Source: Luidia sarsii (Eukaryota; Echinodermata; Asteroidea; Paxillosida; Luidiidae). From it: 64,000 bases of DNA. Where the stretch lies: contig OX465109.1 in NCBI GenBank assembly GCA_949987565.1, forward strand, positions 13,223,400 through 13,287,399, given 5' to 3'. The translations under genes were made by a program, and so were the position numbers. This document shows, piece after piece, positions 11,201 to 52,689 of this stretch. The notes under the pieces were generated by a model. The model ran no database searches. It worked only from the letters and a program-made list of their open reading frames with translations, and had not been told where the DNA came from. Numbering within the stretch: the stretch's first letter is position 1; each line of letters starts with the position of its first letter.

Positions 11201-14200
11201 GTCTGAGTGCCTTGGCTAATGGTTGCCCAGAGCTGCTGGAGATAGACCTTGGATGGTGGTAAGATACTGATTTCCTGAGATCACACCCATGGTGATTGCC
11301 GCAAAGTGGCTTCAAAGGACACATCTTAAGATGCTCATCAGTCTTCAGCTAGGCAGTCACTTGCATTTTAGACTCTAAGTGCCAATAAGCAAAATCAAAG
11401 TGTAATTTAGATTGTTTGGATTATGAAATTCAGCTTCAGGAATATCTCTGCCATACAGTCACCTGGTCATAACCAGGCCAAACTCTCACACAATCCAATG
11501 AGAAACATCATGCGCTTTTGAGTGTACAACCAAACAATTAGAATCACAGCTCCAATACAGCAATAGGGACTGTTTCTAATGCTAATTGAACTTTGCAGTT
11601 CCAGTCTTTTCCACTAATCTAAATAATCACAAGTGTATTGAACTTCATATTTTGTTATCTATTCCTCCAAAGAGAATCCTCTTACCATGCTCATGAGTGC
11701 AGCAAAGGAGCATCAAATGTAGAACCTGCAATGAATCCGTAGATGATTAAGGTTACAATTTCCTTGAGCATTTATGGTACCTCAGGACAGTCAGAAGTTC
11801 CCAGCACTCTTGATTGTTTTAACAGCACCACACCTCTTCACTAAAGATTTCTTCAAGCAATGACTGCAAAAAACATTCCATTGATCACATGACATGCCTT
11901 AAATCTTGACAATAATCTTGATTTGTTTTTCCTCAGTTCTGAGCTTAGAGGTGGTAATTTTCATCCCTGCCTCGCCAGGTTTATAGGATCCTGCCCAAAA
12001 CTCCGTAAACTCTTCTTGACGGCAGTCAGGTAAATGGGATTAATTAAAGTAAATCAATGAGGGTTTGCCCTGCTCGACGTAATAAGCACTGAACTTTGCC
12101 CGATGCCTGATAAAAGCAGGAGTTGCGGGTTCGAGTCCTGCCTGAGCTGCCTAAAAAAACTATCATCAGGCATTAGGCGAAGCACTGAACACCCAGTACA
12201 TATTACATGTACATATACGTGGAGCAGGACAGATCCTCATCCCATGTAAGTCCCTTTGTAAAAAACTTTGCTTCCCTGAGTGGTTGTTTACCTCATTGCA
12301 AAACAACATTCTAGATAACTATTTGGTTTTGGTGATTGAAGATGCTGTTCATTTTAGAAGAGGCACGCAAAGATCAATTTCTCTACAGGAATTTCTTGAA
12401 AAAAGAAGTGATTGGGATTTTGCTTGGTAACCATTTACATCGGAAAGAAAATTAGACTAGATCATGATTTGAGCCCAGGATTCTGACATTCTTCAGGCTT
12501 AGGCGCCCGTCAGAAAAATTTAACAAAAAATTGCTGTAAATCTCCAGAGAGAGCACCCCGTTTTCATTATGATGCAGAGAAGTTTGCCCGCAACAGTTTG
12601 AGGAGCATTCAAGGTGGATGCAGCTTTTAACAATATTTTTTATCAAAGAATGGAAAGGAAAATAATACATGGAGAATAGATTTGGAAGTATGAGTAAACT
12701 GCTGCCTTAGAAGGCGCTGTTCCTGTGGCATAACTAGATACACTCCTTTTGACTTTTTTGTCCAAATTTGAGTTCATTTTGATTGTTGCTGTTCTTTGTG
12801 CAGGAGTGTACAAGATGCAGATCTTTGTGTCATAGCCAACTATCTGACTGACCTTGAGCAGCTGGATGTCTTGGGGACATTGTCAGTCACGGCTGGAGGT
12901 TTGCAGAGGTGAGTTACAGATCATGAGATGGGTCTTGGATGGGACCTTCTCCATGGGTTCCATCACAGGCCAACCTTGCTAGATACACTGTACATCCTAA
13001 CTCAGGAACCAATTGTAAGATAATGGTAGATGCAGGCTATTAGACCAATGGCAAATATGGGTGTGCCATTTTTGTTTCCGTTTCAAAAATCTTCATTTCT
13101 TTTTGATTCAAAACTATTTACAACTTTCTCACATTGAGTGACACCCAATTGAGACACCCAAAGACACCCATCAATTGAGACACCCAAAGACACCCATCAA
13201 TTGAGACACCCAAAGACACCCATCAATTGAGACACCCAAAGACACCCATCAATTGAGACACCCAAAGAAACCCATCAATTGAGACACCCAAAGACACCCA
13301 TCAATTGAGACACCCAAAGACACCCATCAATTGAGACACCCAAAGACACCCATCAATTGAGACACCCAAAGACACCCATTAATTGAGACACCCAAAGACA
13401 CCCATCAATTGAGACACCCATAGAGACCCTTCAATTGAGACACCCATAGAGACCCATCAATTGAAACACCCAAAGACACCCATCAATTTAGACACCCAAA
13501 GAGACCCATCAATTGAGACACCCAAAGACACCCATCAATTGAGACGCCCAAAGACACCCATCAATTGAGACACCCAAAGACACCCATCAATTGAGACACC
13601 CAAAGACACCCATCAATTGAGACACCCAAAGACACCCATCAATTGAGACACCCAAAGACACCCATCAATTGAGACGCCCAAAGACACCCATCAATTGAAA
13701 CGCCCAAAGACACCCATCAATTGAGACACCCAAAGACACCCATCAATTGAAACGCCCAAAGACACCCATCAATTGAGACACCCAAAGACACCCATCAATT
13801 GAGACACCCAAAGAGATCAAAAGATCAGTTGCTCCTGAAAAAAACTTCCTTCTTATCCTATCTGACCAATTCCAACTATCAACTTTTCCCTGAACAAACC
13901 CATTTGTTTTGTTTACCGGTACCCATTAAAAGTGTACATGTGTAATGGCTTAGATAAAGGCTGGGTGAAATATCAAATCACCACGACCTGGTAACCAAGC
14001 ATTCAGTTTAATTTTGGGGATTTTCTCTTGATTTTTTCCCGTTTTCTCTCCACTCTCTGATCATTAATAGGGTTTTTGAGAGCTGCAGAAAGCTGAGGTT
14101 TATAGACTTGTCCTTCTGCAATAATGTCAGCGAGGAAGATGTGATAAGGATGAGGTCAGCCTACCCACGTGTCACTGTACAGAGAAGCTTTGTCTCCTCA

Positions 14201-28638: not shown

Positions 28639-31350
28639 CAGGGTTCTCCCCAGGATTTTTCAAGACTGTGGGGATTTCCTTTGTGGCTGACCCAAACCCT
28701 GCAAATTGTTTTGACTTGCGATGCTCTCTGCTGCATTTTAGAGCATTTCCTGGGCTTTTTAAGTACTTTTTCTCAGAAAAAAACCATGAAATTAAATATT
28801 ATCTTTTTTCTATATTTTTCAGTTTTTGAACAAATGACCAGTTTTTCGTTCTGGACTACATGTTATTATAGGCACAAAATGAGTCATTTGAAGTTTCAGA
28901 CATGCAATAATATGTAGTGGCTGAATCAATCAATGATTTAAACAACCGTTTTATCTTGTTTTGTTGAACATAAATGCTTCAACCTTTGGTTTATGCTGAT
29001 CAGACCTGAAACCATGAGCTCCATTCAGTTTCAAGGCAAGAATATTAGCTTAAAGGAATAAACAAATGTCATAAAAAATAAAACTATTTGGTCTTTATAT
29101 AAAATAAAACTATAACACATAATGTAGGCTTTTCCTATACATCGGCAAGAACGAAAACCTGTTAAAAATGCATCTTTTTACAGAGTTTTTGACCTGAGTT
29201 TGTGAATTATTTTTATGTAGTCTGACCCCTTGTTAAGTCGAATTTTGTTTAAATTTGTGGCCTGACTTAATTAACATAGACAATTTTGACTCTGCAAATT
29301 TAACGATTCACAAATTAACAAAATTACAGTAAAGGACAAATCAAGCATGAAACTAACTGATGTGTGACTTGGCTCGAGGAAAAATTACTTTGATTTGACT
29401 AGACTTGTGAAACATGTTTTGTTAATTTGTTTTCACATGTGACTTTCCTTGACTTTGAAACAATAACTAGTTAAGAATCTAAAGAGTAACAAAAGCATAA
29501 ATTATGAAAGAAACCATTGCTTGCTATGTTATTGCAAATTATATGGTAAGTTATCTCAAGCCAAAACAGTAACTTTAATCCATACACATTGACAAGTAAC
29601 TACTACATGAATATCAAATCTTGGAACCCTATGCGAAATTAAACATCCAGTCGTCGGTTCTTGTTCTGAGCCCAAGTACATGTATCTGCTGCAGCATTGA
29701 AGTCCATCTGGTGAATGGGGGGCCCTTCAACTGATATCATTAAAAGGCTGTTCAGAGTTACTTCATTCATCCTATTCCTGAGAGTACTTTTGATTCTCTG
29801 AAATATAAGAAAAAAATAGAAATTTAATATGTTTTGATAACATAAAAAACGATAATCAATAAACTTTTGACATGGAGTATTACCTACCAGCTGTAGAGAC
29901 TGGCAACACCAAAGCCACAGTAGCCAGTTTAGTCAAATAATTAAATTAATCAAATAATTAGGTTAATATTGGTCAAAAAATTAATCAAAATATTGAAACA
30001 ATTAAATTGGTAAAATAATTTAAAAGCAAAGTTGATGCTGCTGTATTAATTTTACAAAGTTAATGTTAGGCCTTTCCTTCAAATATTTTTCATAAAATCT
30101 GAACATTTTTTAAACAAAAATGATAATAAATCTAGAAGTAGCAAGTAATATTTCATTACAATTTTTGAAATTTAAAAATGTATACTGACCTTTCTCTTTG
30201 GGGGTGGCTATGAGCCATTTGTATTCAGTCAACCATTTCGGATCGATGTCCGATTTCTTTTTCTTTCTCTGCGATACGTTATCGGCGAATGCCCCTCCTT
30301 CGCCGGCATCTTCTGTGCACGTGCTGCAGGTGGCTGTTTCGTTTGCTTTTGGTATTCCCTCTGCGCGTTCCGCTAATGTTATTGGCTTAAAAAAGGAGCC
30401 TGTCTTAGATTGCTTTTCCGCCATGATTGCACGCGAGACAAATTTAATGCCGTGACATGGCAACGAGCTAAGATCTTATAGTGCGCAAAGTGCGCAAGAT
30501 AGCCTACTCTTGTGAGATCACACGCATCCGGGTGAAGTACGCCCTGGGCGCCATTTTAGTAAGCAAAGTCGCACACATTCTCTCCATTTCGTGGTCACAT
30601 CACATCGAAAGTTATCACATTCTGTTCACGCATCCAAAGTTGTATATTTTTTATTGTTTTTGACTCTCTTGCTTCATTTTCAGAGCACCGAAAGCAAACA
30701 ACATAATATTCCGTTGCTTACTTGCTAAAAAATGTCATCCAGTGCGTACCTCATCCTTTGCTCGGAGTAGTCCACCTTGCGTGCTTTGCGCGCTATAAGA
30801 TATCTGGCAACGAGTAATATATGTACTGACATGTCCCCGTTTTGTACACAGGCCTACGGCAATAGTGTAGTATATAGAAATGTTACCCTTCGTAAATGAA
30901 GCCCATAGAACTGACAGTAGCGTATTGAGCACACGGCACACAAAACACATGCGGGCATGTACATGTAGGACGCCCATAGCAGAGGTTCAGATTTCATGTG
31001 ACACCGGCCACGAGGAACGTTCGGTGCCTTCATGTGTACACATGTACTTGTACATGTACAGTGCATAATTATATAGTACATGTACATGTACTGTACGTGT
31101 ACTGTGTACAGTGTGTGTGTGTGCAGTGTGGCGTCGCGCTGTGCACAATGCATGCATGCATGTACATGTACATGTACCGCACGGAAAAATGCAGGACTAT
31201 TAATTGCTTTTTCGTCTCGATTTTGCCAAACATGCAAGCTGCATCATGTAAAATAATTTTGAGCCATACTATCATAATTATTTTCTGCGTATCGGACAAA
31301 AATAGTTGCGTATCGGTCGATACACACGTTTGTACGTGGGGAGAACCCTG
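28639..31350 (-). mobile_element. DNA element with CAGGGTTCTCCCCA inverted ends
   Basis: The ends CAGGGTTCTCCCCA (28639-28652) and the exact complement (31337-31350) bound 2712 bp. Flanks are AGGAA (28634-28638) and AAGAA (31351-31355), an imperfect 5-bp duplication. Removing the insert plus one copy restores the gypsy RT reading frame across its conserved motif, so the borders are right. CAGGG ends and the coding exon inside suggest a hAT-type element, although a clear 8-bp duplication is absent. The interior is AT-rich, with acatgtac clusters from 30950 to 31180. Confidence 0.82.
30190..30424 (-). CDS. First exon of a hAT-like (ZNF862/KIAA1586-type) transposase
   Basis: The ORF starts at an ATG in good context (30424-30422, cgccATGattg read on the other strand as ATGGCGG) and encodes 78 residues, ending at a GT donor (AAAG|GTCAGT). 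It has a SFFKP motif near the start, a basic KKKK stretch, then DPKWLTEYKWL, which in hAT-derived KIAA1586/ZNF862 proteins precedes the TTF-type zinc finger. No later exon with the zinc finger or catalytic domain was found in the element, so it is likely a deletion derivative. Confidence 0.55.
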
Positions 31351-31365
31351 AAGAACATAACCCTA

Positions 31366-31612
31366 CACTCTAAAAAACAAGGTGCTAAAATGAGCACATG
31401 AAGTGCTGATTTTAGCACTTCTAGGTGTGTTTATAGTGACTGCACGCCGCGTGCTGATTTAGCTCTGGCATGCGTGCTAAAATATCAGCACCCAAAGAGT
31501 GCTGTTGCTAAACACTTCAGGTGCTATTTCGTAGCACATTTCCAGGTGCTATTCATTATTGAGGCTACTCTTATCGAGCTAACTATAATGCAGCACCACA
31601 AGTGCTAATCCA
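31366..31612. repeat. Left subterminal GTGCT/AGCAC motif cluster of the CACTA-like element
   Basis: About 13 copies of gtgct or its complement agcac lie within 245 bp, in both orientations, many followed by aaa or gat (gtgctaaaa, gtgctgatt). Clustered short subterminal repeats in mixed orientation are where CACTA transposases bind. Confidence 0.8.
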
Positions 31613-33220
31613 CAACGTACCAAATTTTGAAAAGAAAATTAGCCTGAAACTGTCGAAATTCCTTTCAATATCAATTTATTGTGGCTGCCAACAAAACTTT
31701 AGAAATTGGGAAAACCTTCCGCTCATGCATTTGTCGCATGTGAACACTGTTTTAAACCAGCTGAAACAGCATTGGGTTTAGATAACCTTAATGAAACAAA
31801 TTCAACCAGTGAAAATACATATAAAACAGGAAATGTGCAAAACAGTTTCCAAAAATACTTATTACAATTTTTTTCCTGATTAAAAAGATCATCATTTCCA
31901 TTTTTTTTTCATTATTTACTGGCAGTGTCAATTTTGAATAATCACAAATTATAGTAAAATTTCCATGTAACAGTATATAAACCCATGACATTCAAGAAAT
32001 AAGTGCTGTAGGCAAGAATTCCATGATTTACAAAGTAGAAATGTGTAATCATAAGGCAGATAATTTACTAATAAACAAGCATCACAAGTCCTGTCAACAG
32101 TCCGTATCCACAAGTCAAGCCGCAAATAGTTTCACTGGACAAATCATAAGTACTGCAACAGTGAACAATAAAAAGGGATGGTTTTGTCACGATTGGAATA
32201 GACTAAACGGCTCACACGGGCTAACATGCATGGTAGACTTGCAGGGACTTGTATACAACTCAAACACTTTATAACATAAAAGTATGGGAATGTAGCCCTC
32301 GGCCCAATTTCAGATTGTTGTTAAATGAAATTTCTCAAATATTTTGTAAAATTTGACAAGAAATACGTCCCACGATTAGCAAAATAAAAAATAGCTATTC
32401 AAGTCCTTACTGACCATCAGTCCGTCTATTAATCATTAATCATTAGGTATAAAATTAAAAAGTAAGACATTCTTAAACACTTAAACTTTAAAACTGTTTT
32501 GTAAAACATCCTTAAATCACAAACTTTTAATTGGAATTAAACAACCAATGGCAGGAGCATCCCAATCAAGTATTTATCAACAAAGTAACATTCAAAGATA
32601 ATAACCAATTAAATCTACTCTCCATAATCCTAACAGGTCTTGATTTCAGCTTTTTGAAGTGAATTCAGGAGTAGCTTCTTTACTTTGATTGAAATGAATA
32701 CTGAATACTATAACTAGCAAAGTTTACTTGTTAATCCTTTTCAGTTTCATTTAAAATTACTGAAGACCAAAAGTATTTATGTTGAGGTTATACTGCATAG
32801 TGATTTCAATCCCTGCGTACAAATTTTGTGAGTAGGCCTACCTGCTCTTCTATAGCAAAAAACAAAACAAAATTGTGATAGAGTTGGTTCTCCTTAACTC
32901 AGTCAGAATTTGACTCAATGATTGTAACGTCTGATTTTTGAACTTTTCTCTTCATATAAAAATTGTGTAATAACAATGGTTGTATTCACACAAGAGGTGG
33001 CTGTATATCTATAGAAGGGCCCTGGCCTAGCTACGAGTAGCTGCAATCACAATCCTGGGAGTGATGTTGTTAATCACAAAATTAGCTTAAGCACAAGAAA
33101 ACCGTATTCAATAAACAAGCTTACCAGCCCAAATTCTGTGTGTTTTCAACATAACAGCTACATGTAAATGACATTTAAAAGGCCAACAAAATCAGGTAGA
33201 AGTTTGGATTGGTGGGATTA

Positions 33221-33226
33221 TTTATT
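33221..33226 (-). promoter_or_regulatory. Poly(A) signal AATAAA of the 536-residue gene
   Basis: AATAAA on the - strand lies 53 nt beyond the TAA stop, a normal spacing for a 3' end. Confidence 0.6.
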
Positions 33227-33278
33227 GAGTAAATTATTTTGTGCATACAGGGCTCTATGATTTTGACCCCTAGGGAAT

Positions 33279-36200
33279 TTACTGTGCCTTAAGTGCCATA
33301 GCAACCTCTGTAACTCGAGGTGGCAGCTTTCCTTTATACTTAATGCCATACACTTGAGTCTGCAAGTAAATGAAGAAGTTAACCAGTGACGCCGAATACT
33401 CCAAGTTAAACACAAAGTGGCTCTTGAAGAGAAAGTCAACTGCTGCTGTGATATTAGTTGATGGTAGAGGAAACCCATTATCTTCTATCTTTAGGATGAT
33501 CTGCTGCACTGATGATCTTGAACCAAATGCAAGAAGAGAAGGCTGCTTTGTGGACTGATCCTTCAGGGCATCCTGTAGTGAACTGCCAACCTTTTAAAAA
33601 CGACACAGAACAAAGGAAGAAAATGACAGCATTTGCATTCTACATCAGGCTATGTACTAAACCAAATAATCCAGTCAATTTTTAAAATGTGAGCTAATAT
33701 AGCCATCTGGAGTTGACAATCACTTTCCTTAAACTGTCACTCTAAGCTCACATTAGATAACCTAGATGGCAAGGGGGTACTAGTTTCTAAAGGATTAATA
33801 CATGTTACCCCTTCTAGAAAACAATCTATTTTGCTCAGTTCCATTCATGTGCTTGTAATCATGTATTCTGACTCAAACAGCGGTCATCCTCTACATAGAT
33901 GTAAATACAATATCTTCGTGTGTCAAAGAAAACCACTAGAAAAACTGACTGACTAACTTATGAAAGGCTTTGGAAAAGTACTCTGGGGGTCACAGGTTAG
34001 AGCCCCACTCCAGTCAAGAAGGTCTATGTTTTGCATGGTGAATAGAACAAATTAAGCAGTGAGTTTGCAGTAGAAGCACATGAATATTTGTTTGGAGACA
34101 GTGTAGGGTTTAAAGAAACCCTGTGAGATCTCAATGCTCTAGACAATGTGGAACCTGCCCTGCATTGTTTATGCAATGCCATCAACATTGACATATACCT
34201 TACCATGGCACTTCCTAAAATATTCCCAAGAACTGGCTAATATGTTTAGAGTGTATGTGTTTGACAAGGAACACTGCAAAATCGCTACTTAATTTTTAAT
34301 TTTACAAAACAAAGATGTTACCTCATAGAATTTCAACAGCTGCTTGTCCACATCTTGATGCGAAACACGACCTCTTGCTTTTGTGTTGAATGATGGTAGC
34401 AGTCGCATCAGCACAATGAAGCCATAGAGTGCAATGAGTTCTACAAAAAACATGTACAAGTATGTAGCACTGTAAATTTGCTGAACCTGCTGTCCTCAAT
34501 CCTCCAATTGTATTTTGGAATTGCTTGTAAAGATGTAGATTGAAAGTTAACCCAAACTGGTCTTTTAAAAGTTCACTCTTTTTCAATTCAGCACAGTTTT
34601 GACAATATCATGTGAGATAAGATACAAAAAAGTGGGAGAAAACTTGCTTTGGTTTTGAAGCTACCTTTATGAGAGACATTCTACATGATGTAGGGGTAAT
34701 TTGTTCCATCACAAAATAAGCAGTTTACATCTAAAATATGGACATGTATAGGCTTTTTGTGAGGACACTTACATGTACACGAGTGTACCATGCTTACCTT
34801 CACTTTTCTCTCCAGGTTCTGACTCGTAGTCCCGCACCACTCTTGCAACTTGCTCCTGTTGACACGTCGAGCCATATTTTAGTAGAGCCTGGGCAAGGCC
34901 ACTCCATTTCCCCAGCATGCAATCAGATGATTGCTTGAAAATGGCCTGGAAATCTTGATCAATCTGGTAGTTGGTATGAAACAATTCATTTAAAGGCACA
35001 CCAGTTTGGGGGTGGGTAGTTCACATTCATTGGGTAGTAGAGAGGCAGCTCATCAGCTTTGAATACATCTACATGTATCTTGGGAAGCTAATGGCTTCTA
35101 CCTTTCTAATAAAGCAAGTCAAATAAATCTTACTTTCAAATTTGACTTACAAGTTCTGGAATATCCATGAAGCGTGGGTAATGACACAGGATTTTGGATA
35201 GAAATGGCTTTTGGCGGTCTATCCAGGCACGTCTGTTGGGTGCTAGGCGTTCCATAGCTCTGATGACTTGCAGTCTTGTTCTTGTTGCATTCCTGCAGTA
35301 GGACTCCAGCTCTTCAGCCTCCGACTCAGGTATCAGGTCCTCTTTAGGGCTCTCACAGCATGGTGGAGTGATGTTTTTACTACTGGTCTTCTGCTTTGCA
35401 GAGGGAGGTAGGGTCCTCCGAAGGTTCTTCAGTTTATCCTGGATGTATCCACTCTGCCCACCCACTGAACAGAAGAAGTGTTCCTGTTGGAAATACATTT
35501 AGACCAATATGGCAGAGAATATCATTGACAAATGCAACTTGTCATTTTCAACTTGTCAGGGGCCAATGTTTAAAAATGCATAAAAATCCATGCTTACATG
35601 GAGCTTTCATGAACTCATCATTTGGGCCAAGACAACAGCAAGTACACAATCTATGGCAAAGGATTCCATGAAAATTGTGCCCACATGTCTGAACTACCAA
35701 TTTGTAGATACAATTCTAACACTGATTGCCAATGTGGAACTGGCTACTTAAGGCATGACTTGCAATATGCTGTGAGAACCCAGGAGGCTATTTGTGTTAA
35801 CAGGTTGTTCATAAAACAGTGGGGTTGAATTCATATTCAGAGTCAACTTGTTTGCCAACTTACATGCCCTGTCCTCCCATTGGAATCTCTGAGATTTGGA
35901 AACAATCTGACCACTGCACTTCCCATTGCGTGTTTCTCCTCGATGGTTGGGTAACTGTTTAAAAAGAATTATTGTTAGTGGACAAATGAGGAATTTTTGT
36001 TAGTGGACAAATCAGAACATGATAAGCAACAGATTGAAGAATGCTTTTAAATTTGGATTGACAAGTTTGTGAACATACAGAAAGCTATGGGATGATGTTT
36101 CAGGAGCCAAGTCTTCTGACTACAATAAACTCGAGTAATTGAACTGAAAAAAATATCAACAGATTATTAATAGTAAGTCCCCTCATTCACCCATCAAAAC

Positions 36201-38334
36201 CCTTTTCATCAAAACAGGATTGCATCATTTCTACTCCATAATATACTCCATAACAAGAGGGCTTACTTTCCACATCTCGCAACCAGCTCGGCAGTTAGTA
36301 TACTGACAAGAGAGATTCTTGACCCAGGACAGATGTATTTGTTTCTACAGTACTCCTCCAGAATAGCTGGTCCTTTGGGGTGTTTCTCCAAAATCTTCTG
36401 AGCGTCAAACAATGGCTGCTTGAAAATGGAAAGGGGAAAAATATACCAATGAAATTGTATTCTTGTGACCGTATCTCACTGACAAACAACACAGGAAATT
36501 CAAGAAAATTCAAAAATTTGAAAGGCTGACAGTGATATCACATGTGCTTTTACATGTACCTGTGCAAGCTCATAATTTCCTATCGTCGACTGTGGGCTCC
36601 AACTGTCCCCTTACGAAAATGCACACTTGTCAGTACAAAGGATCATTGTTATAGCACAAATGAAAACAAAAATCCCAATATGCTGTCAGTTGCATGACTG
36701 CTCTTGTGACTTGCAACAACCAAGCTTGCATGATTACAAATTTTGCTTTGTAAGACATACTTGTATTGTACAATGAGTTTTAGTCAAAACTAGCTAAATC
36801 ACTCGGCCCCCTTTCAATTTTTACTCCATGCAGAAAAACGTATAAATGATCAACTCTTCATGTTGTTTTCTAACAGCTTTGACAACACAAAGAGGGCCTA
36901 CAATGTATAGTAAACAGAGTAGTATACACATATCAAAATGAGGCCAAACCCATTCACCTGTTCCACATGTTGTGGTTGTTGGTTCCTAACTAAAAAATAC
37001 TATCACACTGAGTGGGAATTGCTTAATAAATTGATTAATAATGATGCAAATTAGTAAGAGTGATAAAACTGTGAGGCAAGCTCACCTTGGCTAGGTTCAT
37101 TGGGGTGCTGCTTGTAGATGCTGACATGGATGGTGATGGTGATCTTGGAGGGCAGGTGTCACATATCTGAGAGATTGACAATAAATTTAACAAATAAATC
37201 AAATTATTTAACATCCCAAGAAAATGAAAATTTTTAGTTCTTTGAATTTGAAGTAATTGCCTACGGGACTTTTTTGGTAAAACTTACGGAGAAGTACATG
37301 TACATGTACATGTACGTGTACAAGTACACGTACGTGTACAAGTACATGTACACGTACATGTACTTGTACTTGTACAGGTACGTGTACATGTACTTGTAAA
37401 TGTACTTGTACATGTACTTGTACATGTACTTGTACATGTACTTGTACTTGTACATGTAGAGTACATTGCTGTATAGTACAATCATAGACCTGGAGGAATT
37501 TTTTTAAACAGCATCAAAATCATCATGCATCATTTGCATTTGCTAGCACTGCACACAGTTTTTCACAAAGTACAGGTACAAGAACTTCCCTTCACAACAA
37601 AGCAGTAATTGCGAAGAGACTCACAAAACATTATTTCATTTCTTTTTAAGCATACTGCTATGCTACAATTGGTTGCAATTGAAAATACAGGTGTCATATT
37701 TCCAAGAACATACATGTACATATACATCAATGTGTACAAGCGTCTGTGGAGTACAGTTGACTCTTTTTAATACAAACACTGTTAACACAACATTCTGATA
37801 AAACAAAGCTCTGGTCCCCACATTGCATTCATGTGCACTGTAAATGGGGTTGTGTACATGTATGTGTACCACTTGTAATAGTACTATACGTTGTGGTACA
37901 TCAAACAATCTGGCCAGGTCTCACTGAGTTTGCATTAATGAGAGTCAACTGTAACTGTACTTCATATGGATGTTTACCTTTGTTGATGGGCTGCAGGGCT
38001 CTGGAAGCTGGTCAAGATAACTAATAGTGCTTCCGGTAGAGTATGATGGACTTGGGGGTCTTGGAGAAATTGTCGTTTGCGAAGATTGGAATTTGATCTC
38101 AATTATATCCTCCAAAATATCCTCATCATTTTCATCAATTTCAACAAAACGACCATTTGTTTCAACTTTTCCTTGAAAGAAATATTCAGATTGGCCTTCA
38201 CCACTTGAGAGGGAAAACTTTGATAACACTTTCTCAGTTATGCTTGTGAAGGTCTTCTCATTGTCAAGTTTAATTAACTTTTGCCTTTGCTGTCCATCTC
38301 CATGGACAAACGTTACGTACATCCGTTTACTCAT
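33279..38334 (-). CDS. Eight-exon gene of the CACTA-like element, 536 residues, unknown function
   Basis: The exons on the - strand are 38334-37978, 37166-37086, 36418-36267, 35954-35864, 35483-35151, 34963-34798, 34440-34322 and 33590-33279. All have GT/AG borders; together they make 1611 nt without a stop until TAA at 33279-33281. The N-terminal 70 residues (MYVTFVHGDGQQRQKLIKLD...) look like a ubiquitin-like/PB1-type fold. A Pro/Ser-rich linker follows. The C-terminal exon has QPSLLAFGSRSS and FVFNLEYSASLVNFFIYLQ, which I know from large families of uncharacterised fish and invertebrate proteins. An AATAAA lies 53 nt after the stop. Likely an accessory transposon protein; function unknown. 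Confidence 0.8.
37294..37458. repeat. acatgtac/acttgtac microsatellite
   Basis: About 165 bp consist of the hexanucleotides acatgt and acttgt, with some acgtgt variants. It lies in the first intron of the 536-residue gene, near the acceptor of exon 2 in transcription order. Tyr/Met- or Thr/Cys/Ser-repeat ORFs across it are spurious. Confidence 0.9.
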
Positions 38335-38492
38335 TGCAAATTAAAATGCTGATTCAAGAAATCTATGAGAGAGTTAGTAAGTTCCTCTTTAGTAATTACG
38401 TTTTGTTTGTAGGCTTCAATCAGGAAAAGTAAAAAGTTTAGTGTGCCATGAATTTCCAAGAAATGCCACTCTTCATGACCACCACCTGGCAT
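38331..38492 (-). CDS. 53-codon upstream ORF overlapping the 536-residue ORF by ATGA
   Basis: The ORF starts at ATG 38492-38490, just after an acceptor (ctttttacag, AG at 38502-38501), and encodes 53 residues rich in Leu/Phe (LEIHGTLNFLLFLIEAYKQN). Its stop TGA overlaps the ATG of the main ORF in the arrangement ATGA (38334-38331). It sits in the same exon, so a transcript starting upstream would carry both. It could be a separate small protein, a regulatory uORF, or an N-terminal module read through another splice form. Confidence 0.6.
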   Translation of the reverse strand: MPGGGHEEWHFLEIHGTLNFLLFLIEAYKQNVITKEELTNSLIDFLNQHFNLQ

Positions 38493-38654
38493 TGTTTGAC
38501 CTGTAAAAAGAGTACACATTATGGTATTTAGTAACCAGCTCTTCAGTTCCCAAATGTTTTCCTCGAGGCTAGGGATTAAAAGCTTTGTAGCAGGAACAAT
38601 ATGTCCCTACAATATCAGTTATTTTCTAGTTGCATTACATGTTTTGGTCCAAGA

Positions 38655-38660
38655 TTTATT
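38655..38660 (-). promoter_or_regulatory. Candidate poly(A) signal of the 826-residue gene
   Basis: AATAAA on the - strand, about 170 nt after the stop codon at 38829. Confidence 0.4.
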
Positions 38661-38828
38661 ATTTTTCAATGACGTTTTTGTCCTCAAAATATATTTTTGG
38701 AATTATTTAAATTTCATGGAACTAAAGACTCTGAAATCTGCCGTGTTGTCCTTAAAAATGTTGTCAGCTGCTACTCTGGTAAGGAAATAAATAGTGCTCT
38801 CTTGCAGAAACAAAATTGACTTAAACTA

Positions 38829-41309
38829 TTACAAAATATAATTTCTTGTTGTGACAACATTTTTCTCTCCAACACAGTTAACATGCAGTGGGCGAAAGTT
38901 CCTTAACATGTTTGGTTGTCGGAAGAATTTATCATTGGATTCACTGATAATGTAGGCATGAATGTGTTCATCAAAATAATCACTTGTCCATAGTGCTCCT
39001 GACAAGAAGACGGCATTACCTACAATAATTACATGAGACATTTTTCCAAATTGAGGTAATTCATCTTTCATGTTTACAACTACAAGTGTACCTGTCCTGT
39101 ACTCAGTTCCATAATGGGTTATATTTGAAGTGACAAAAACATCATCATTTGGGAGGAGCTCAGGAACTTGCGTCAATAGAGCAGGATAGTCCTCAATATC
39201 TCTGACAGCACAACTGGCTACTTCACCAGCTTCAAATCCCACATCTTTACTGTGTTGAGACCATCTGCAGGAATGACTTATCTGGTGTCTTTTAGCTGCT
39301 GTCAAGCAAATATCCTTGAAACAACATACTACACTGGTCAGCCTTTTTGTCATATTATGCTTTGCTTCAAAGCGCATAGACCATAAGTTGATAAGAGGTC
39401 CAACTGCTTTCATGACCATGGGGTAATGCACTAAAAAGTGGTGCTTTGGAAGAAGTCGGACTGTCGGAAACAACTGCTTAAATAAGGAATGGTGATCCTG
39501 AATGAGGTACTTCAGATAATGACTCAAACCTTCTGTGACTGAATCTCCAAAAACTATGTCTACAATTGTTCGCAGTTTCAAGATTAATTGCCAATACAAA
39601 TTACCTACTGGGAGCAGGGGACCAATCAAAAGTGGCAACACTCGGAATAGGCACCACATTTGGCTTGCATGCTGTTTCAGAGAGTTGTCTTTTCCTTTGA
39701 GAGTTGATTCCAGAATCTGTGAAGGCTTATTTTTCTTGTCACAGTGCCCGTAGTTATGGTTTGCCAGAAGGGCATTGAGCTTATCGAGAGTGAAGAAGTG
39801 TTCATCATAGATAAACCTAGCTAGTACTAACTTTACTTCCATGGGAATTACGCCTTCTAATAAATCATGCATAATATCCGGTGCAAGGTTGGTAGTGACA
39901 TGAAAAAATTTGAGAGAATTTAAAACAGTATCCCTCTTAACACCACTATTTGTCACTGCTGCAGCATTATGAAGAGACTCTTCTACATGATTAGTGTGGA
40001 GGCCTTTTTCTCTGAGTACAAAGTCCTCTTCAAGAAAGCAGTGCTGAAAGTCTTCCTTATGACCTACACAAGTTCGGCATGGTCTGTTAGCCATAAAACT
40101 CTCTACAAAACCAAACACACCATTCACCCCAAGATTATCTCCACAAACTTGGGTCAATGTTCCATACACAGTCTTTGTAGAATTGTCAGGCAGTACAACG
40201 TCTGCGCCATCATTTGATTCTAGCTGTTTTAATTCTGCCACAAACGGAGCCAATATGGGATTGAAACCATACTTTTTTAGATCAAGGCAATTACAGAATG
40301 CGAGCAAGTGAATATTGTCCAAGGAAGAGTTTAGTCTTGGATGAAAATTCTTTAACATATAGTAAAAGGCACCAATTTTGTGGAGGCCTCTTTTGGAACC
40401 AAGAGGATTAACCACCTCGAATTCATCAAAATAGAGGCAAATCTGAATTGCCTGCTGATTGGTTGAAAAAAGTGGATGGTTTCTGTACTGGCTTCCATCA
40501 CAATAATCACGCAGCACATTGTCATTGCTTGTATGTCCAACATCAATCTCATTTACTGCATGTTTGTCACCAAGAATCATTCCTAGAGTGGATAAAAGGG
40601 AGACATACTGAAAAGTCTCTGGTACAAGAACCTGTTTTGTTTGATTTTGATGATCTGTTTTAACATCATAACGAAAGCCAAGAAAAATGGTCTTCGGCTG
40701 AACAACATACAAATGTGCATCAAGGAATCTTTCTTGTTTGTATCTAGTATCAAGACCATTAAAAAGAGATCCATCATTCTCAAATTCAGCCAACAGTGTC
40801 TGGTAATGTTCACTCTCCCTTCCAATGCCGATTTTGTCTAAAGTCTTGTCAACTTTACCCATTAAATTGTTAACAACTTCAGAATTCAAAGAGGCAGTTG
40901 CAGATATAACTCTGCTCATGCTTGCGTAGGTCATGTTTGTATCAGAAAGAAGTGAACCAATGAAAATAGCTGTTTGCTTAGATAAGTCCACGTCATCCTT
41001 TCTTCCTACTACATTTTGTTCAATATAGGGCCCATGAGCACACTCTTCCACCTCTTCCATATGTACATGTACATCATGTACCTCATCCCCATCTACAGGA
41101 ACACTGTCATCTAAAACAAGGGGATGTTGGTTAGCTACATGTTTTCTGAAAGAATTGAATGTGGTAAAAGATGACGGGCATCCACCTTGACCACATGTTA
41201 GACTTAAATCTTTTGCGTCAAAGAGAGCATGTGCCATATGCAAATGGCTTATTAATTTAGAAACATGTCCTGGAATTATTATATGGCATTTGAAACATGA
41301 ATACCCCAT
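38829..41309 (-). CDS. C2H2 zinc-finger tnp2-like transposase-type protein, 826 residues, intact
   Basis: A single uninterrupted ORF of 826 codons. Residues 5-60 form two C2H2 fingers (CFKC...HLHMAH and LTCGQGGCPSSF...HVANQH). The centre has NRPCRTCVGHK and the signature PDIMHDLLEGVIPMEV near residue 495, then LLPKHHFLVHYPMVM and MRFEAKHNMTKR. In animal CACTA/EnSpm-type transposon proteins the D-x-MHD-LLEG block corresponds to the tnp2 region. The start ATG follows an acceptor-like TGAAATAG about 35 nt upstream, so the 5'UTR is probably spliced. An AATAAA lies about 170 nt past the stop (38660-38655). Likely the transposase; the catalytic residues cannot be fixed by eye. Confidence 0.82.
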   Translation of the reverse strand: MGYSCFKCHIIIPGHVSKLISHLHMAHALFDAKDLSLTCGQGGCPSSFTTFNSFRKHVANQHPLVLDDSVPVDGDEVHDVHVHMEEVEECAHGPYIEQNVVGRKDDVDLSKQTAIFIGSLLSDTNMTYASMSRVISATASLNSEVVNNLMGKVDKTLDKIGIGRESEHYQTLLAEFENDGSLFNGLDTRYKQERFLDAHLYVVQPKTIFLGFRYDVKTDHQNQTKQVLVPETFQYVSLLSTLGMILGDKHAVNEIDVGHTSNDNVLRDYCDGSQYRNHPLFSTNQQAIQICLYFDEFEVVNPLGSKRGLHKIGAFYYMLKNFHPRLNSSLDNIHLLAFCNCLDLKKYGFNPILAPFVAELKQLESNDGADVVLPDNSTKTVYGTLTQVCGDNLGVNGVFGFVESFMANRPCRTCVGHKEDFQHCFLEEDFVLREKGLHTNHVEESLHNAAAVTNSGVKRDTVLNSLKFFHVTTNLAPDIMHDLLEGVIPMEVKLVLARFIYDEHFFTLDKLNALLANHNYGHCDKKNKPSQILESTLKGKDNSLKQHASQMWCLFRVLPLLIGPLLPVGNLYWQLILKLRTIVDIVFGDSVTEGLSHYLKYLIQDHHSLFKQLFPTVRLLPKHHFLVHYPMVMKAVGPLINLWSMRFEAKHNMTKRLTSVVCCFKDICLTAAKRHQISHSCRWSQHSKDVGFEAGEVASCAVRDIEDYPALLTQVPELLPNDDVFVTSNITHYGTEYRTGTLVVVNMKDELPQFGKMSHVIIVGNAVFLSGALWTSDYFDEHIHAYIISESNDKFFRQPNMLRNFRPLHVNCVGEKNVVTTRNYIL

Positions 41310-42100
41310 GATTGATTTATGTTGACTGGCACAGGCCTTAACCTATTTCAAAGATTAAAGAAAATAAATAGCCTACAACTTGCACAAGTACCCCAGGCCT
41401 TTCCACAGCCTGACACTGACAACACTTTTCAGGTCAAGGCCGGTTATCAAGGTCCACTAACACTAGACTAGGCCAATCTGTGTCATAGTCTATTAAGTAT
41501 TATTACTAAATACTAGTCATGACTCAGTCATGTAGAGCTTAGAGCCTAGATAGAGGTGACGAGTAATAATGCAATACAACATAACATGCATAGACCCTAC
41601 AACTTACAAGTTTTTACAATTCCACAACAGACTCGCTTTTGACCGTATTGCCCCTAACACTGCTACTGTGCTAGTTCAATCACGCTGATGCTACGTCTCC
41701 CAGTCGCTAGGCAGGCGTAACCTCTGATATGTCAAGTGTTAGAATGGGTCTAGGCCCGCTTATAAGTAGGCCTACAGTAGGCCTATATACGTTAACTTAA
41801 GCGTTAAGGCATACAAGGTGAAGGTCTCAAAGATAGCTCGCTTGGATAATGTTGTTGGGCTTAGTATTATTAACACAGGCAACAACGAGCAGTCAAGTGC
41901 CAAACCAGAAGAATTCATACACTCACAGCATTCTTTTGAGACAATTAAATATATAGTCTAGAACCGGCATATGGACTCCAAAATTGAAAAATAGCCCCAC
42001 TCACCGCTGCGACCCACCAAGTCATCAACTCATGCAGTCAACGGTAACACACATGTACCATACGTACGCACGTATGTTTGTACAGAAAACGAGCGAGCAC

Positions 42101-42112
42101 ACAATGGCGGCC
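42101..42112 (+). promoter_or_regulatory. YY1-like site (ACAATGGCGGCC) in the presumed promoter of the CACTA-like element
   Basis: The word fits the YY1 consensus AANATGGCGGC. It lies about 200 bp inside the right end of the element, upstream of both - strand genes, in the only CG-rich patch of the region (gcggccgcgg). YY1 sites often mark transcription starts and retroelement promoters, so this is where I would place the promoter. Confidence 0.4.
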
Positions 42113-42189
42113 GCGGACCGGACAAGTTCAGACGTGTTGAAAGGGTCACATGACTCAAATGAGCCAATCAACCTTCCGTTCTTAAAGAG

Positions 42190-42314
42190 CACGTATTTTC
42201 AGCACCCGCTTTTCAACACCTCAGGCATAGTTTGCTCCCGTGGAGCTATTTTGTGCACGTTACGTGCAGGTGACATCTCAGCACCCACAATTCAGCACTT
42301 TGTTTTTTAGAGTG
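42190..42314. repeat. Right subterminal AGCAC motif cluster of the CACTA-like element
   Basis: At least five agcac or near copies (agcacgtatt, cagcacccgc, tgtgcacg, cagcaccca, cagcacttt) lie in the last 125 bp, ending in the terminal inverted repeat. It is a sparser mirror of the left end. Confidence 0.75.
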
Positions 42315-42318
42315 TAGA

Positions 42319-42510
42319 AATGAGCGAACCTCGGTAGCATTACGGGGAAGGGGCCAATCATGAACACGATCAGTATTTGCTGGGTCAGGGAGAATTCCAT
42401 CTTTGGAAACAATATAGCCTAAGAATCTTATTGTGTGTGGAGAAAGTGACACTTGGGTTTAGTTTGAGGTTGGACTTCTGGAAGTGGGAGATAACTTCTT
42501 CCAGGTTAGT
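42319..42510 (-). pseudogene. Gypsy RT middle fragment
   Basis: Contains NLEEVISHFQKSNLKLNPSV and, after a frame change near 42410, FLGYIVSKDGI and WPLPRNATEVRSF. It is bounded on one side by the 42517-44345 insert and on the other by the CACTA-like element, so both borders are exact insertion points. Confidence 0.85.
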
Positions 42511-47659: not shown

Positions 47660-48304
47660 TTATGATTGCAATGAGGGTGGATAGAGGATTGAACACGTGT
47701 TGACCACAAAATGCTGCAAAGCCGAGGACAAATTGCTGCCAAAAATCTCATTACCCTGTGGCGACAAGTGAACTCCGTCAAAACGGTACAATGAATGTTG
47801 AGAAGCCGATATATTATAAGAATGAACAATTCTGTGTGCATTGCCCAACTGGGCACAGATTCGTTGAGCAAATCTGTTCAGAGCGCGAACAAGCTTTTTG
47901 CCTGTATTACGTTTTTGCTCCCCAAAATAAAAAAGCCGTGGGAGAATGTCGGACCAAATTATTGTCGTGTTGGGCAGTAGGTTATGCGTAGCACGCAGTC
48001 CCTCCTCTATCCTCTCCCTGATCTGCTTAACAGGAGCGGAGAACAGATCGTTTGTGCCTAAATGGATGACTATCCTATGCGGTACAGGGCGGCTACGGAG
48101 TTGCCGTCGCAATGTTGGGACCAGGGCCTCCAACCGAGCGCCTCTCAAGCCGCACCACGACAGTGTCCCTTGTGACGGGCTGTGTGACAAGCTGCGACTG
48201 ACCCAGTGGATAATGCTGTCCCCTATGATCCATGTTCGCAAATGTCCTGAGGGTACAAGCAGTAAACACGAACAAAAGGGACCACCAGAAGAGATATCGC
48301 ACAT
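47660..48304 (-). CDS. Ngaro SGNH (GDSL-like) hydrolase, intact
   Basis: The 214-codon ORF starts 26 nt after the recombinase stop. It has all SGNH blocks: IIGDSI (Ser), GARLEAL (Gly), HLGTND (Asn) and DGVHLS (Asp and His) near the end. Related esterase-like ORFs are carried by Ngaro and some other retroelements; the role in transposition is not known. No stop or frameshift is seen, so this ORF has been kept better than gag and RT. Confidence 0.85.
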   Translation of the reverse strand: MCDISSGGPFCSCLLLVPSGHLRTWIIGDSIIHWVSRSLSHSPSQGTLSWCGLRGARLEALVPTLRRQLRSRPVPHRIVIHLGTNDLFSAPVKQIRERIEEGLRATHNLLPNTTIIWSDILPRLFYFGEQKRNTGKKLVRALNRFAQRICAQLGNAHRIVHSYNISASQHSLYRFDGVHLSPQGNEIFGSNLSSALQHFVVNTCSILYPPSLQS

Positions 48305-48330
48305 ACTTAATAATTATGCTAACATAACGG

Positions 48331-49090
48331 TTAATTAACATAATGGTTAACCAGTGTCGAAACTCTGTCTGGGTGTATATAGGACTGGACAGCATTAGAC
48401 CTCCAACGGCCCATTGATTGAATTTGTGAATTTGGGACACCATTAAAAGCAGCCTCCGTAGCCGCACTGATCCGGAAACTATGTGGGCTAAATTTTCCAG
48501 GGGGTAACCCGATGCTCTTTATGCACGTTTGGAAGATACGGCAAAATTGGTGGGAAGTTAAGGGAGACCCATCAAAATGAATGAACAAAGGGCCAACCTG
48601 TGGAGGCTGCAAACCAAGGTATTGTGTTACCGCAGAAACTGGGCACAGTGGGGAAGACCCGTTCTTTTGAAACCGCAAGACTACGGAGTTGCCTCTCTGG
48701 TCCGTTTTTGAAAAACTGAGGGTTACTGTCATAACATTGCGGGACAAATCCTCAAACCTGACATCATGTGAGGCCACAATGCGAGAACAATCACTCTTTT
48801 TGGACGGGGCAGTGAATTCACCCACCCGCATGAAACCGAAAAAAGCCAGTTGAAATGCTGCCTTAAAAAGTGTGGCCTCGAACTGTGAATATGCCAGGCC
48901 CCCTACCATCTGGCAAAGCCTTAGCAGGATATCTTCTGTGACTGGATACCGAGCGTCTAGTTTTTTGGCCTTTTTTCTGCGAAGGCCCTCCCTCAATTTG
49001 TGGACCAGGAAGTTGTCCGTTGGGTCAGACAAACCATGAACCTTATGCGTATAGGCCACCGCTGCAAGGTATGTTCCAATAGTAGCAGGG
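48331..49090 (-). CDS. Ngaro tyrosine recombinase
   Basis: The 242-codon ORF holds the catalytic set of the family in order: Arg in GFMRVGEF, His and Arg in SPHSFRISAAT, and Tyr in GRWRSNAVQSYI. The reading upstream of the ATG at 49059 continues to about 49090, where a frameshift separates it from the RNase H end. The enzyme would integrate the cDNA by site-specific recombination, leaving no target duplication. Confidence 0.85.
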
Positions 49091-50993
49091 CAAAGCCAGC
49101 TAATGAGAGATAAGCGATAAAAGAGACTATGTGGTTAACTGAAGCCGGCCAGAGCGATGGAAGACCTGCATGCTGTCGAAACTGGTTGAATTGTGTAAGC
49201 CCCTGGGAATACGTTGTCCACGTACTCATAGCCATTGATGCTGTGTGTAGGCGCATGACTTCTCTATCTATAGCTCCCAAAGAAATGCAGGGATTTGTAT
49301 CCCTTGCGCAGCTGCCGCCGGAGCGAGTCTGCGGAAGCGGGATATCTGTAACCGGGAAAGAGCATAGATCTGCAATCTCATTATGCTCACCAGGGATATG
49401 CTGGGCTTTGAAAGCCACATTGTCTCTTAGGCAGCGTAGCACAAAGTACCGGACCAACCGCATTATAGAGCTACACCGTGATGTCTGCTTACAAAGGATG
49501 GCAACGACAGCCTCATTGTCAGAACGGACAATGACGCGGCGGCCTAGTAGGCTATGACCCCAGAGCGTTATTGCTACAACCACGGGGAAAAATTCCAGCC
49601 AAGCGATAGAATGTTTAGCAATCTTTATTTTTTGTGGCCACGGTGCTGCGAACCACTGCCCATTGTAGAATCCCCCGAACCCAATCCCCCCACTAGCATC
49701 TGTAAAGAATTGCACATCAGAGTCCAGCACCCAATATTGGTCAGCAATGATCGCCCTCCCATTGAAACTGTGCAGAAAAAATTGCCACATGCGCAAGTCC
49801 TCTTTTGCTCCCTTACTCAGGCGTATTAAGTACCGAGCCTTTTTGATCCCTATAGTGAGATCAATTAGCCTCCTGAGAAATGCCCTGCCTGGGGTTACCG
49901 CTCGGCAAATGAAGGCAAGGGACCCTGTCAAAGACTGAAGTGAGCGAAGTATGATTTTTTCTAAAGCCAGCGCAGCTGTTGTCTTATTGCGCACTTTCAA
50001 AAGTTTGACCTCAGGAACGGCCACTGATAATGCCTCCGTGTCAATTTCCAATCCCAAAAAAACTAGCTTGGAAGTAGGTTCTACTGTCTTATCCTCAGCT
50101 AACGGTACCCCCAGCATTTCACATGTACGCTTAAAGGACTCGAGCACTGCTTTGCATGATGAGGGTGCATTTTCATCTGACCCTCCTACGAAAAGAAAAT
50201 CGTCGGCATAATGGCATATACCTCCGAAGCCAGACTGCTGTTTGCAAACCCATTCTAAAAACGTAGAAAAGGATTCAAAGTGAGCCGGAGCACAGGAAGC
50301 CCCCATGGGCAAGGCCTAATCCACATATATCTTGTCCTGGACCTTAATTTCCAAAAGACAAAAGTCATTAGGGTGAATTGGTAAGAGGCAAAATGCCGAT
50401 TTAATATCCGCCTTAGCAAGGAAAGAGCCCTTTCCTGCTCTTGTAACCAAATGCAACGCGTCATCAAAAGTGGAATAGCGGACTGCGCAAAGTGTCCTGT
50501 CAATACCGTCATTGACTGAATCCGAGTCTGGGTATGACAAGTGATGGATTAACCTAAATGAGCCCGGGACGAGACCTATGGGGGATATTCGAAGGTTGTC
50601 AATTGGAAGGGTGGTAAACGGGCCGGCCATACGCCCTAAAAGGATCTCTTTTTCCAATTTTTCAAAAGCCGCGTGTGTGTTTTGCCTTACGGACTGCAGG
50701 TTAGGTGCATCCCGTCGTTCACACGGCCCGCTGTAACCAAGACAAAAACCATTTGTAAAGCCATTGCGTAACCTCTCTGCTGCTGCCTTAGCAGGGTATT
50801 GCTCTAATAAGGACAACAGAGGAGAAAGTTTAATTGGCGTTCGAGCGAGACAGCATACATAATGATTCCCCAAACCACAAGCCGGTTGCATAGTCTGCAT
50901 TTTACTGTGCAGTAGAGGGAGGTTTGCCTTTGTTGGCTTTGCATGCTGCGAGTCCTTGCCCAAGGGCATTGCATCCGAGGCATCGATGAACAT
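48993..50993 (-). CDS. Ngaro reverse transcriptase and RNase H, one internal stop
   Basis: RT begins with FEKLEKEILLGRMAGPF and ISPIGLVP, then FRLIHHLSYP and KADIKSAF. A TAG at 50313-50315 interrupts it before LPMGASCAP. The active site is HYADDFLF, with the YADD box intact. RNase H shows TDASGGIGFGG near 49680 and RSDNEAVVAIL near 49510. A one-base loss near 49092 moves the frame before the recombinase. Confidence 0.85.
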
Positions 50994-52368
50994 ATCTGTA
51001 CTGTGAATTAACGCATGTGGATCGATTGAACGCGAAACACGTGTTTGTGCCGCGGTTGGTTTGTTGCGGGATCCAACGAAAAGAATATCCAGAACGCTTC
51101 CCCCCTTGAGTGACCTTCGAACCTGTAGCGACCGTTGCGTATGTGCTAGGGGTACTAGGTGTAATCACGTAAAGTGCCCATAGTTCCCCATTGATTACTG
51201 CCCAAGACCGAGTAGGGTGTAACTGCTGGCGCATTCTAAACTGCCTGTCGTATTCAACCCAACCCCGGCCTGGAAAGCGGGCTGCTGCTGTCCTGATGAC
51301 ATGCATGTATTTAAGTAGCTCTTGACTCCTGGCCGGATGTGCGCTCAGGAATATTGACGTGTAAACGAGAAAAACATCAGTCCACGCAAGAAATTAGCTT
51401 ATCTGAGCCTTCTTCTTAGAGTCAATGACCTGTATCTGCCCATTGTTACCTAAGGTGAATGTCAAATTAGTTGTGGTACTAGCTTGGGATTTGCGATCCA
51501 GAAGGATTTCGAGCTCAAAGAACTCGCTTCTAATTATCTTATCTTTCAAGCAAAGGGGAAGGCCACTGCCTAAGGAATCACACACAGATGTGAGAGGGCT
51601 CCCACTACCTGACATCCATTCGGTACTGGCATGACTTGGGTGAATAATATCGTTGTAACCAAATATATTTACCGGGTTTCCAGCACCCCCAAAGTAACTT
51701 GAACTATGCTCACCGGGAGGTGTGTTAACGGGGTGACCCGCTATGGCTTGGAGACCCGCAACCGCAGTGTTGACCACGGGATCACTAATGCTCTGAAGGG
51801 TGCAGACTGCCGTGCGGGGCCCGAAGTCAGCTCCTGATGAAGTTGGCTGGACGTTCCCTCCTGAGCTTCCAAATCTGTCGAAGGGCTGGGATGTTGGGTT
51901 GCTCGCTCCTCCGGCTGTAGCCTGTCCCAGTCCCATAGACGGCGCTTGGCCCGATATGCCGCCGGTGTAGCCCAGTGCCGCCGCTGCGTTGCCGGTCATC
52001 ATGGGCGCCGGGGATCGGGAATACGGGGGTTCGTGAATTTCGGCTTGGACCTGGAACCCCAACGAGCAGTTCCCAGGAGGTTGTGCCGACGTTGACGCCA
52101 CGGTGTTGTCACTTGATGGGTCTTGCTGCTGAGAGCCTCTTTGCCTTGCACTCCTGCCCGAGGACGAAGTCCGAACGCTGCTATTGACTGCTCCGGGGTC
52201 GGCAGCGCTGACTGAGTATGGGGGCTCTCTCACTTGGCCTTGGTCAGGCGGGGCACGGACCATTTCGACTGCTCGCGACTCCGAGCGCGTTTGAACACGT
52301 ACCGCTCGTATTGACCGTTGAGCAGGGGCCTCCTGCGCTTTCCTCTTTCTGCCTCTAACCATGCTCAA
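50902..52368 (-). CDS. Ngaro gag-like ORF with one in-frame stop
   Basis: The reading starts at MSMVRGRKRK (52368) and runs 324 codons of Gly/Ser/Pro-rich sequence to a TAA at 51394-51396. The same frame then continues to 50902 with WVEYDRQFRMR and a zinc-binding-type tail of Cys and His residues (CFAFNRSTC...HRCLGC). The conserved second half is typical of DIRS-order gag proteins, so the TAA is probably a mutation. Its end overlaps the RT ORF start (50993) in another frame. Confidence 0.75.
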
Positions 52369-52689
52369 GCTGCAGCACTGACGAATTTCAGAAATCTTGA
52401 ATCTTGAATCTTGAATCAGCTAAAACTCGCGGAGAGTTTTTAACAACGATGCACACCCAGTGGAGGTGCGCGGCCAAAAGAACCAACAACGTGCCAATGT
52501 GCCCCTCGCCCGACTGCATGCCTGACCGGCCCCATTGTTGGTCAGCTTTCCAGCTACCAAGCATTCCTGGGCCAAGCGCGTACGGCATGCATACCAACGC
52601 CTTTGTTCAGACGGGCATTCTCCCTTCCCCGTTCCCAAAGTGGGTCTTCGGTCGACAAGCGACCAAAAACCGAATTGTACAAAAAACAT

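Follow-up and report, generated by a model that had tools for sequence, protein, structure and literature searches.

A CACTA/EnSpm-like transposon with a tnp2-like transposase gene and a closely linked second gene in the sea star Luidia sarsii

The window analysed in this work is a stretch of 64,000 nucleotides from the sea star Luidia sarsii (C11:13223400-13287399), and coordinates given without a contig name are positions in this window. The evidence supports the presence of a CACTA/EnSpm-like mobile element that carries a tnp2-like transposase gene and a second gene of its own. The element has identical ends, a TA duplication, two open genes, and same-ended relatives elsewhere in the genome, and its two genes are linked closely on the same strand across divergent families. 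We consider it reasonably likely that the element is a complete CACTA/EnSpm-type transposon with two genes, which encode a transposase of predicted RAG1-like fold and a second protein that would likely bind the subterminal repeats and bridge the ends. The features are shown in Table 1.

The terminal inverted repeats are CACTCTAAAAAACAA at both ends and are identical at 15 of 15 positions. They start with CACT as in the CACTA/EnSpm group, but the fifth base is C instead of A and the full CACTA is not present. TA is found on each side of the element. This target-site duplication of 2 bp is short, as in CACTA/EnSpm elements, but it is not the 3 bp of the plant elements. A single open frame (...NATEVRSF-LGLCS...) is obtained when the flanks are joined with one TA removed, whereas a stop appears in frame when both TAs are retained. 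The matched ends, the flanking TA, and the restored target frame that had been noted in the original prediction were thus all reproduced. We take the interrupted frame to be a Gypsy-type pol, going by its motif, and the 52-amino-acid peptide from the joined target flanks gave no match in Pfam.

The left 260 bp contain 13 copies of the GTGCT/AGCAC motif, the right 230 bp contain five, and the intervening 10,459 bp contain 21. Elsewhere in the element or the remaining window the maximum is three per 260 bp, and both ends therefore carry a subterminal cluster. The left cluster consists of eight GTGCT and five AGCAC, and the five motifs of the right cluster are all alike. The clusters had been described earlier as mixed in orientation at both ends, which is correct for the left end but not for the right end.

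The original prediction depended on further copies with the same ends, and such copies with TA were identified. The left 300 bp of the element gave seven matches in the 470.9 Mb assembly, representing five distinct ends including that of the window. A pattern made of TA, the end, and AGTGCT, with up to two mismatches, gave 19 matches including the two of the window, and the reversed control gave none. Eighteen of the 19 matches start with TA, but this count is biased because the pattern itself requires TA. The copy at C7:2575056-2586247 (11,192 bp) has paired ends, TA on both sides, and both genes inside. The copy at C2:4948182-4967519 (19.3 kb) has paired ends and both genes, with two stops in the transposase. 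The copy at C2:6190811-6201779 also has paired ends. Its transposase frame is open, and one of its second-gene matches contains a stop. A 542 bp element on C6 has the same ends (the left one with one extra A) and TA, and it gave no match to either of the two proteins. Dense partial or stop-bearing copies of the window family were also observed on C5 at about 8.48-9.19 Mb, with additional second-gene matches at 6.28-6.71 Mb, and the relatives listed from other contigs are scattered. The C5 cluster resembles a graveyard of transposons or a young region that does not recombine.

The linkage of the two genes was examined with a second-gene profile constructed from the window gene and P0121-P0124, which was run on all frames of 30 of the 59 genomic transposase matches. 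A second-gene match was identified about 1.5 kb or nearer to the transposase match at 29 of these 30 loci. The window is included in this count, and several of the C5 loci are pieces of one copy. The single miss (L034) is a fragment that stops at transposase residue 347. No match was obtained in the 40 controls (10 genome stretches, together 102,459 bp, and 30 shuffled loci). The second-gene matches share the strand of the transposase. The linked loci represent seven lineages (the window family, L021, L028-L032, L035-L037, L039/L040, L042, and L043). Pairwise identity among the lineage representatives is 28-61%, and members of the window family are 57-77% identical to the window.

The homolog P0123 gave 51 matches in the whole genome, and 38 of them (19 of 31 loci after merging) lie on the same strand and at most 12 kb from a listed transposase match, against a chance expectation of 0.13%. 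Twelve of the remaining 13 matches are on C5, and the last one, on C2, is separated from a transposase match by 13.5 kb. Parts of both proteins were also identified in single sea-cucumber gene models, namely P0077 and P0085 (Holothuria), and P0116 and P0125 (Apostichopus). The first three are among the 120 listed of 291 transposase homologs and P0125 is among the second-gene homologs. The second-gene part (14-245) precedes the transposase part (284-818) in P0116, and the transposase comes first in P0077, P0085, and P0125. These models are probably neighbouring genes that were merged in annotation. The gene order differs among families, and the linkage persists. The linkage across families lends much additional support to the earlier proposal of a partner or accessory factor, and the biochemical role of the second gene is proposed by inference.

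The ends of the sister families are CACTGCAAAAAC and CACTGTAAAAAT. Five near-identical copies (L028-L032) have 3' flanks that are all different and that start directly after ...GCAGTG. The C17 copy of this family (10301470-10311111) has CACTGCAAAAAC ends, TA on both sides, and the second gene upstream of the transposase. It carries five GGTGT/ACACC motifs in the left 260 bp and 12 at the right end, and GTGCT is absent from both, whereas the ends of the window element contain one GGTGT/ACACC each. The CACTGCAAAAAC family carries its own diverged second gene. Three other copies (L035-L037) start with CACTGTAAAAATTG and have different left flanks (TA, CA, and TA). In the C7 copy among them, a matching right end lies downstream and has TA after it, and the second gene is in between. 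The near-identical copies of both families exhibit TA, CA, and TG as flanking dinucleotides at one end, which suggests that the target of the sister families is of a 2-bp YR type rather than strictly TA. The young CACTGCAAAAAC copy on C17 adjoins minus-strand frames (C17:10311112-10320000; L045) that resemble, by eye, two receptors, one with an immunoglobulin domain and the other with leucine-rich repeats and a TIR (Toll) domain.

The transposase frame of 826 codons is uninterrupted from the ATG to the stop, as originally predicted. The transposase has 291 homologs at E <= 0.001. Its putative core residues are D295, D391, C411/C414, H624/H628, and E648. They are conserved in nearly all rows of a 50-row alignment (D295 in 49, D391 in 50, C411 in 50, C414 in 50, H624 in 49, H628 in 49, and E648 in 48). 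The predicted structure (predicted local distance difference test, pLDDT, 89.6) matches a RAG1-type core fold, and its C-terminal domain matches a BAH fold. The transposase is thus predicted to have a RAG1-like fold, a DDE catalytic centre, and a BAH-like tail. PF02992 (Transposase_21) was found in 20 of the 50 aligned members at E <= 0.1 (best 2e-06), in agreement with the earlier tnp2-like assignment, though the window's own protein did not match PF02992 and matched Plavaka alone in Pfam (E 0.044, below the cut-off). A search of Protein Data Bank chains with the 50-row profile gave 33 sequences, with zinc-finger proteins predominating and none named transposase. The target-site duplication of Transib elements is 5 bp. 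Assignment to Transib was rejected because the duplication of the window element is 2 bp. The element also differs from Transib, TransibSU, and RAG1-RAG2 in its ends and in its BAH-like tail.

The second gene has eight predicted exons between 38334 and 33279 on the minus strand. All seven introns are GT-AG, and the predicted protein of 536 amino acids is free of stops, which agrees with the in-frame gene model proposed earlier. The predicted junctions from exon 3 onward are covered by gap-free alignment to the sea-cucumber protein P0123 and to P0124. The homologs include P0121 of Patiria miniata (64% identity, 73% of the query covered), P0122 of Asterias rubens (62% identity, 37% of the query covered), P0123 and P0125 (sea cucumber Apostichopus), and P0124. 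Pfam gave nothing at E <= 1 for the 536-amino-acid protein. The PB1 comparison suggested in the original prediction gave sub-threshold matches at E <= 5 in two of four homologs, the best in P0123 (PF00564, E 0.039, 14.3 bits against a cut-off of 23.6), and none in the window's own protein. Exon 1 alone matched Ras_bdg_2 weakly in the window (E 0.14). Among four other copies, exon 1 of two gave weak matches, to RA (E 0.026) and DUF348 (E 0.05), and exon 1 of the remaining two gave none. No match between the second protein and RAG2 appeared in the comparisons made, which cannot exclude one. A palindromic repeat of (GTACAT)n type, about 165 bp long, lies within intron 1 (37292-37458), and similar repeats also occur outside the element at 31020-31180.

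The ratio of nonsynonymous to synonymous divergence (dN/dS) between the window and the C2 copy is 0.139 for the transposase (synonymous divergence, dS, 1.45; 813 codons) and 0.142 for the second gene (dS 1.40; 486 codons). Both comparisons with the C7 copy were saturated for the second gene. Divergence and constraint are thus much alike in the two genes, which is what would be expected if they move and act together.

Table 1. Positions in the window of the element, its ends, its target site, and its two genes.
Feature	Position	Strand	Basis or remark
Complete CACTA/EnSpm-type element	31366..42314		10,949 bp; identical inverted ends, flanking TA, relatives elsewhere in genome sharing ends
Left terminal inverted repeat, CACTCTAAAAAACAA	31366..31380	+	Direct sequence comparison
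Right terminal inverted repeat	42300..42314	-	Direct sequence comparison
TA, left copy of target-site duplication	31364..31365		Sequence
TA, right copy of target-site duplication	42315..42316		Sequence
Left subterminal cluster, 13 GTGCT/AGCAC, mixed orientation	31366..31625		Motif count
Right subterminal cluster, 5 AGCAC, single orientation	42085..42314		Motif count
Target sequence, open frame ...NATEVRSF, resumed across the insertion as LGLCS	42317..42440	-	Flank joining
Transposase gene	38829..41309	-	826 amino acids plus stop; ATG at 41309, stop at 38829
Transposase domains: N-terminal C2H2-type finger region; RAG1/Transib-type DDE core; C-terminal BAH-like (residues ~690-820)			Predicted model
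Second gene, exon 1 (start codon ATG, 38334; weak support for a domain of ubiquitin-like type)	37978..38334	-	Predicted splicing
Second gene, exon 2	37086..37166	-	Predicted splicing
Second gene, exon 3	36267..36418	-	Predicted splicing
Second gene, exon 4	35864..35954	-	Predicted splicing
Second gene, exon 5	35151..35483	-	Predicted splicing
Second gene, exon 6	34798..34963	-	Predicted splicing
Second gene, exon 7	34322..34440	-	Predicted splicing
Second gene, exon 8 and stop codon (strongest-matching exon in C2 and C7 copies)	33279..33590	-	Predicted splicing

The element was compared with known systems. It resembles maize En/Spm and plant CACTA elements in its CACT ends, its subterminal repeat clusters, and the combination of a long tnp2-type transposase with a second multi-exon protein in one element (PMC2613891, PMC1636069). 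However, the plant CACTA elements have a 3-bp duplication and CACTA ends, whereas the window element has the 2-bp TA and CACTC. Its genes are two separate predicted gene models, unlike the single, alternatively spliced transcription unit of maize En/Spm. The element resembles SmTRC1 and other animal TRC elements in its animal tnp2-type transposase, 2-bp direct repeats, and second element-encoded product, but the TRC ends are CCC instead of CACT (PMC1636069). TRC transposase matches have been reported in sea urchin and zebrafish, and according to the same paper the second proteins of SmTRC1 were not detected in other elements, whether of animals or of fungi (PMC1636069). The fungal EnSpm-like ESTA elements share the TA duplication, the C(2)C and H(3-4)H motifs, and similarity to RAG1, but their founding families carry a TET/JBP dioxygenase gene and have fungal hosts (PMC12730594). 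No conserved partner gene of animal CACTA elements was described, as far as could be seen, in the papers listed by searches of the open literature, with Repbase and most subscription journals outside the scope.

Both TnpD and TnpA are required in maize Spm, and TnpA binds the subterminal repeats (PMC2613891, PMC1636069). A TnpA/TnpD-like division of labour is proposed for the window element because its anatomy matches that of maize Spm. The element would move by cut and paste. The transposase would bind and cut the CACTCTAAAAAACAA ends and join the cut ends to a 2-bp TA target. Recognition of GTGCT/AGCAC at the element ends would fall to the second protein, which would assemble via its putative N-terminal ubiquitin-like domain and load the transposase. 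The BAH-like tail may serve to tether the complex to chromatin. Our confidence falls from end recognition to assembly by the ubiquitin-like domain and is lowest for the chromatin anchoring. It is plausible that the element is autonomous. We also suggest, tentatively and with somewhat more doubt than conviction, that animal CACTA elements are obligate two-protein systems. A conserved TnpA counterpart would read the private subterminal motif of each family and load a RAG1-fold, BAH-tailed transposase. Transposases of RAG1 fold would then have acquired or retained a RAG1-RAG2-style combination of cutter and partner on more than one occasion.

The second gene might instead be borne by the element but work outside the transposition complex, by countering host silencing or by regulating the promoter of the element. 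Linkage and purifying selection would look identical in that case, plant TnpA acts on the promoter too (PMC1636069), and no DNA-binding fold was found in the second protein. However, linkage over seven lineages and in both gene orders is more constant than expected of optional cargo, and the motif and the second gene change together between two families. We therefore regard a role outside the complex as unlikely. Far less probable still is a single capture of the second gene from the host by this copy, or a pair of host genes with accidental inverted repeats. The eight predicted exons are host-like, and four named homologs bear labels such as 'uncharacterized' or 'hypothetical protein'. Against this, the same gene pair lies inside the same ends on other chromosomes, a second-gene match accompanies nearly every transposase locus tested (29/30), and the near-identical five-copy and three-copy families have different flanks.

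Despite its intact sequence, the element could be a single insertion that is old and inactive rather than recent and active. The original prediction had called the insertion recent, as the intactness of the element may suggest, and no direct sign of recency was seen. No near-identical sibling was found in the genome, where the best-scoring other left end is 75% identical over 217 bp (left-end relatives, 75-87%) and the nearest other transposase is about 68% identical. However, both long genes are free of stops and frameshifts with dN/dS of about 0.14, the terminal inverted repeats are identical over 15 bp, and age would be expected to show, given that the C5 relatives are partial or stop-bearing. 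An old and inactive insertion is thus an improbable explanation, though one to be kept in mind.

A conserved partner gene in seven lineages of one genome and in sea cucumbers would, if true, open the two-protein mechanism to direct tests in animal cells. Some uncharacterised echinoderm 'genes' would then be explained as transposon genes, and the families would offer a natural experiment on the joint change of the partner protein and the end motifs. The confident RAG1-core model also provides a structural frame for the CACTA group.

Other features were observed around the element. Neighbouring open frames on the minus strand at 47663-52419 resemble a DIRS-type retroelement by eye. They include the YADD motif of a reverse transcriptase, one frame that resembles a tyrosine recombinase, and another that resembles an SGNH hydrolase. 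Long tandem repeats at 604-1765 and 10455-11259 keep at least two frames free of stops for 200-370 codons, and these open frames are probably repeats rather than genes.

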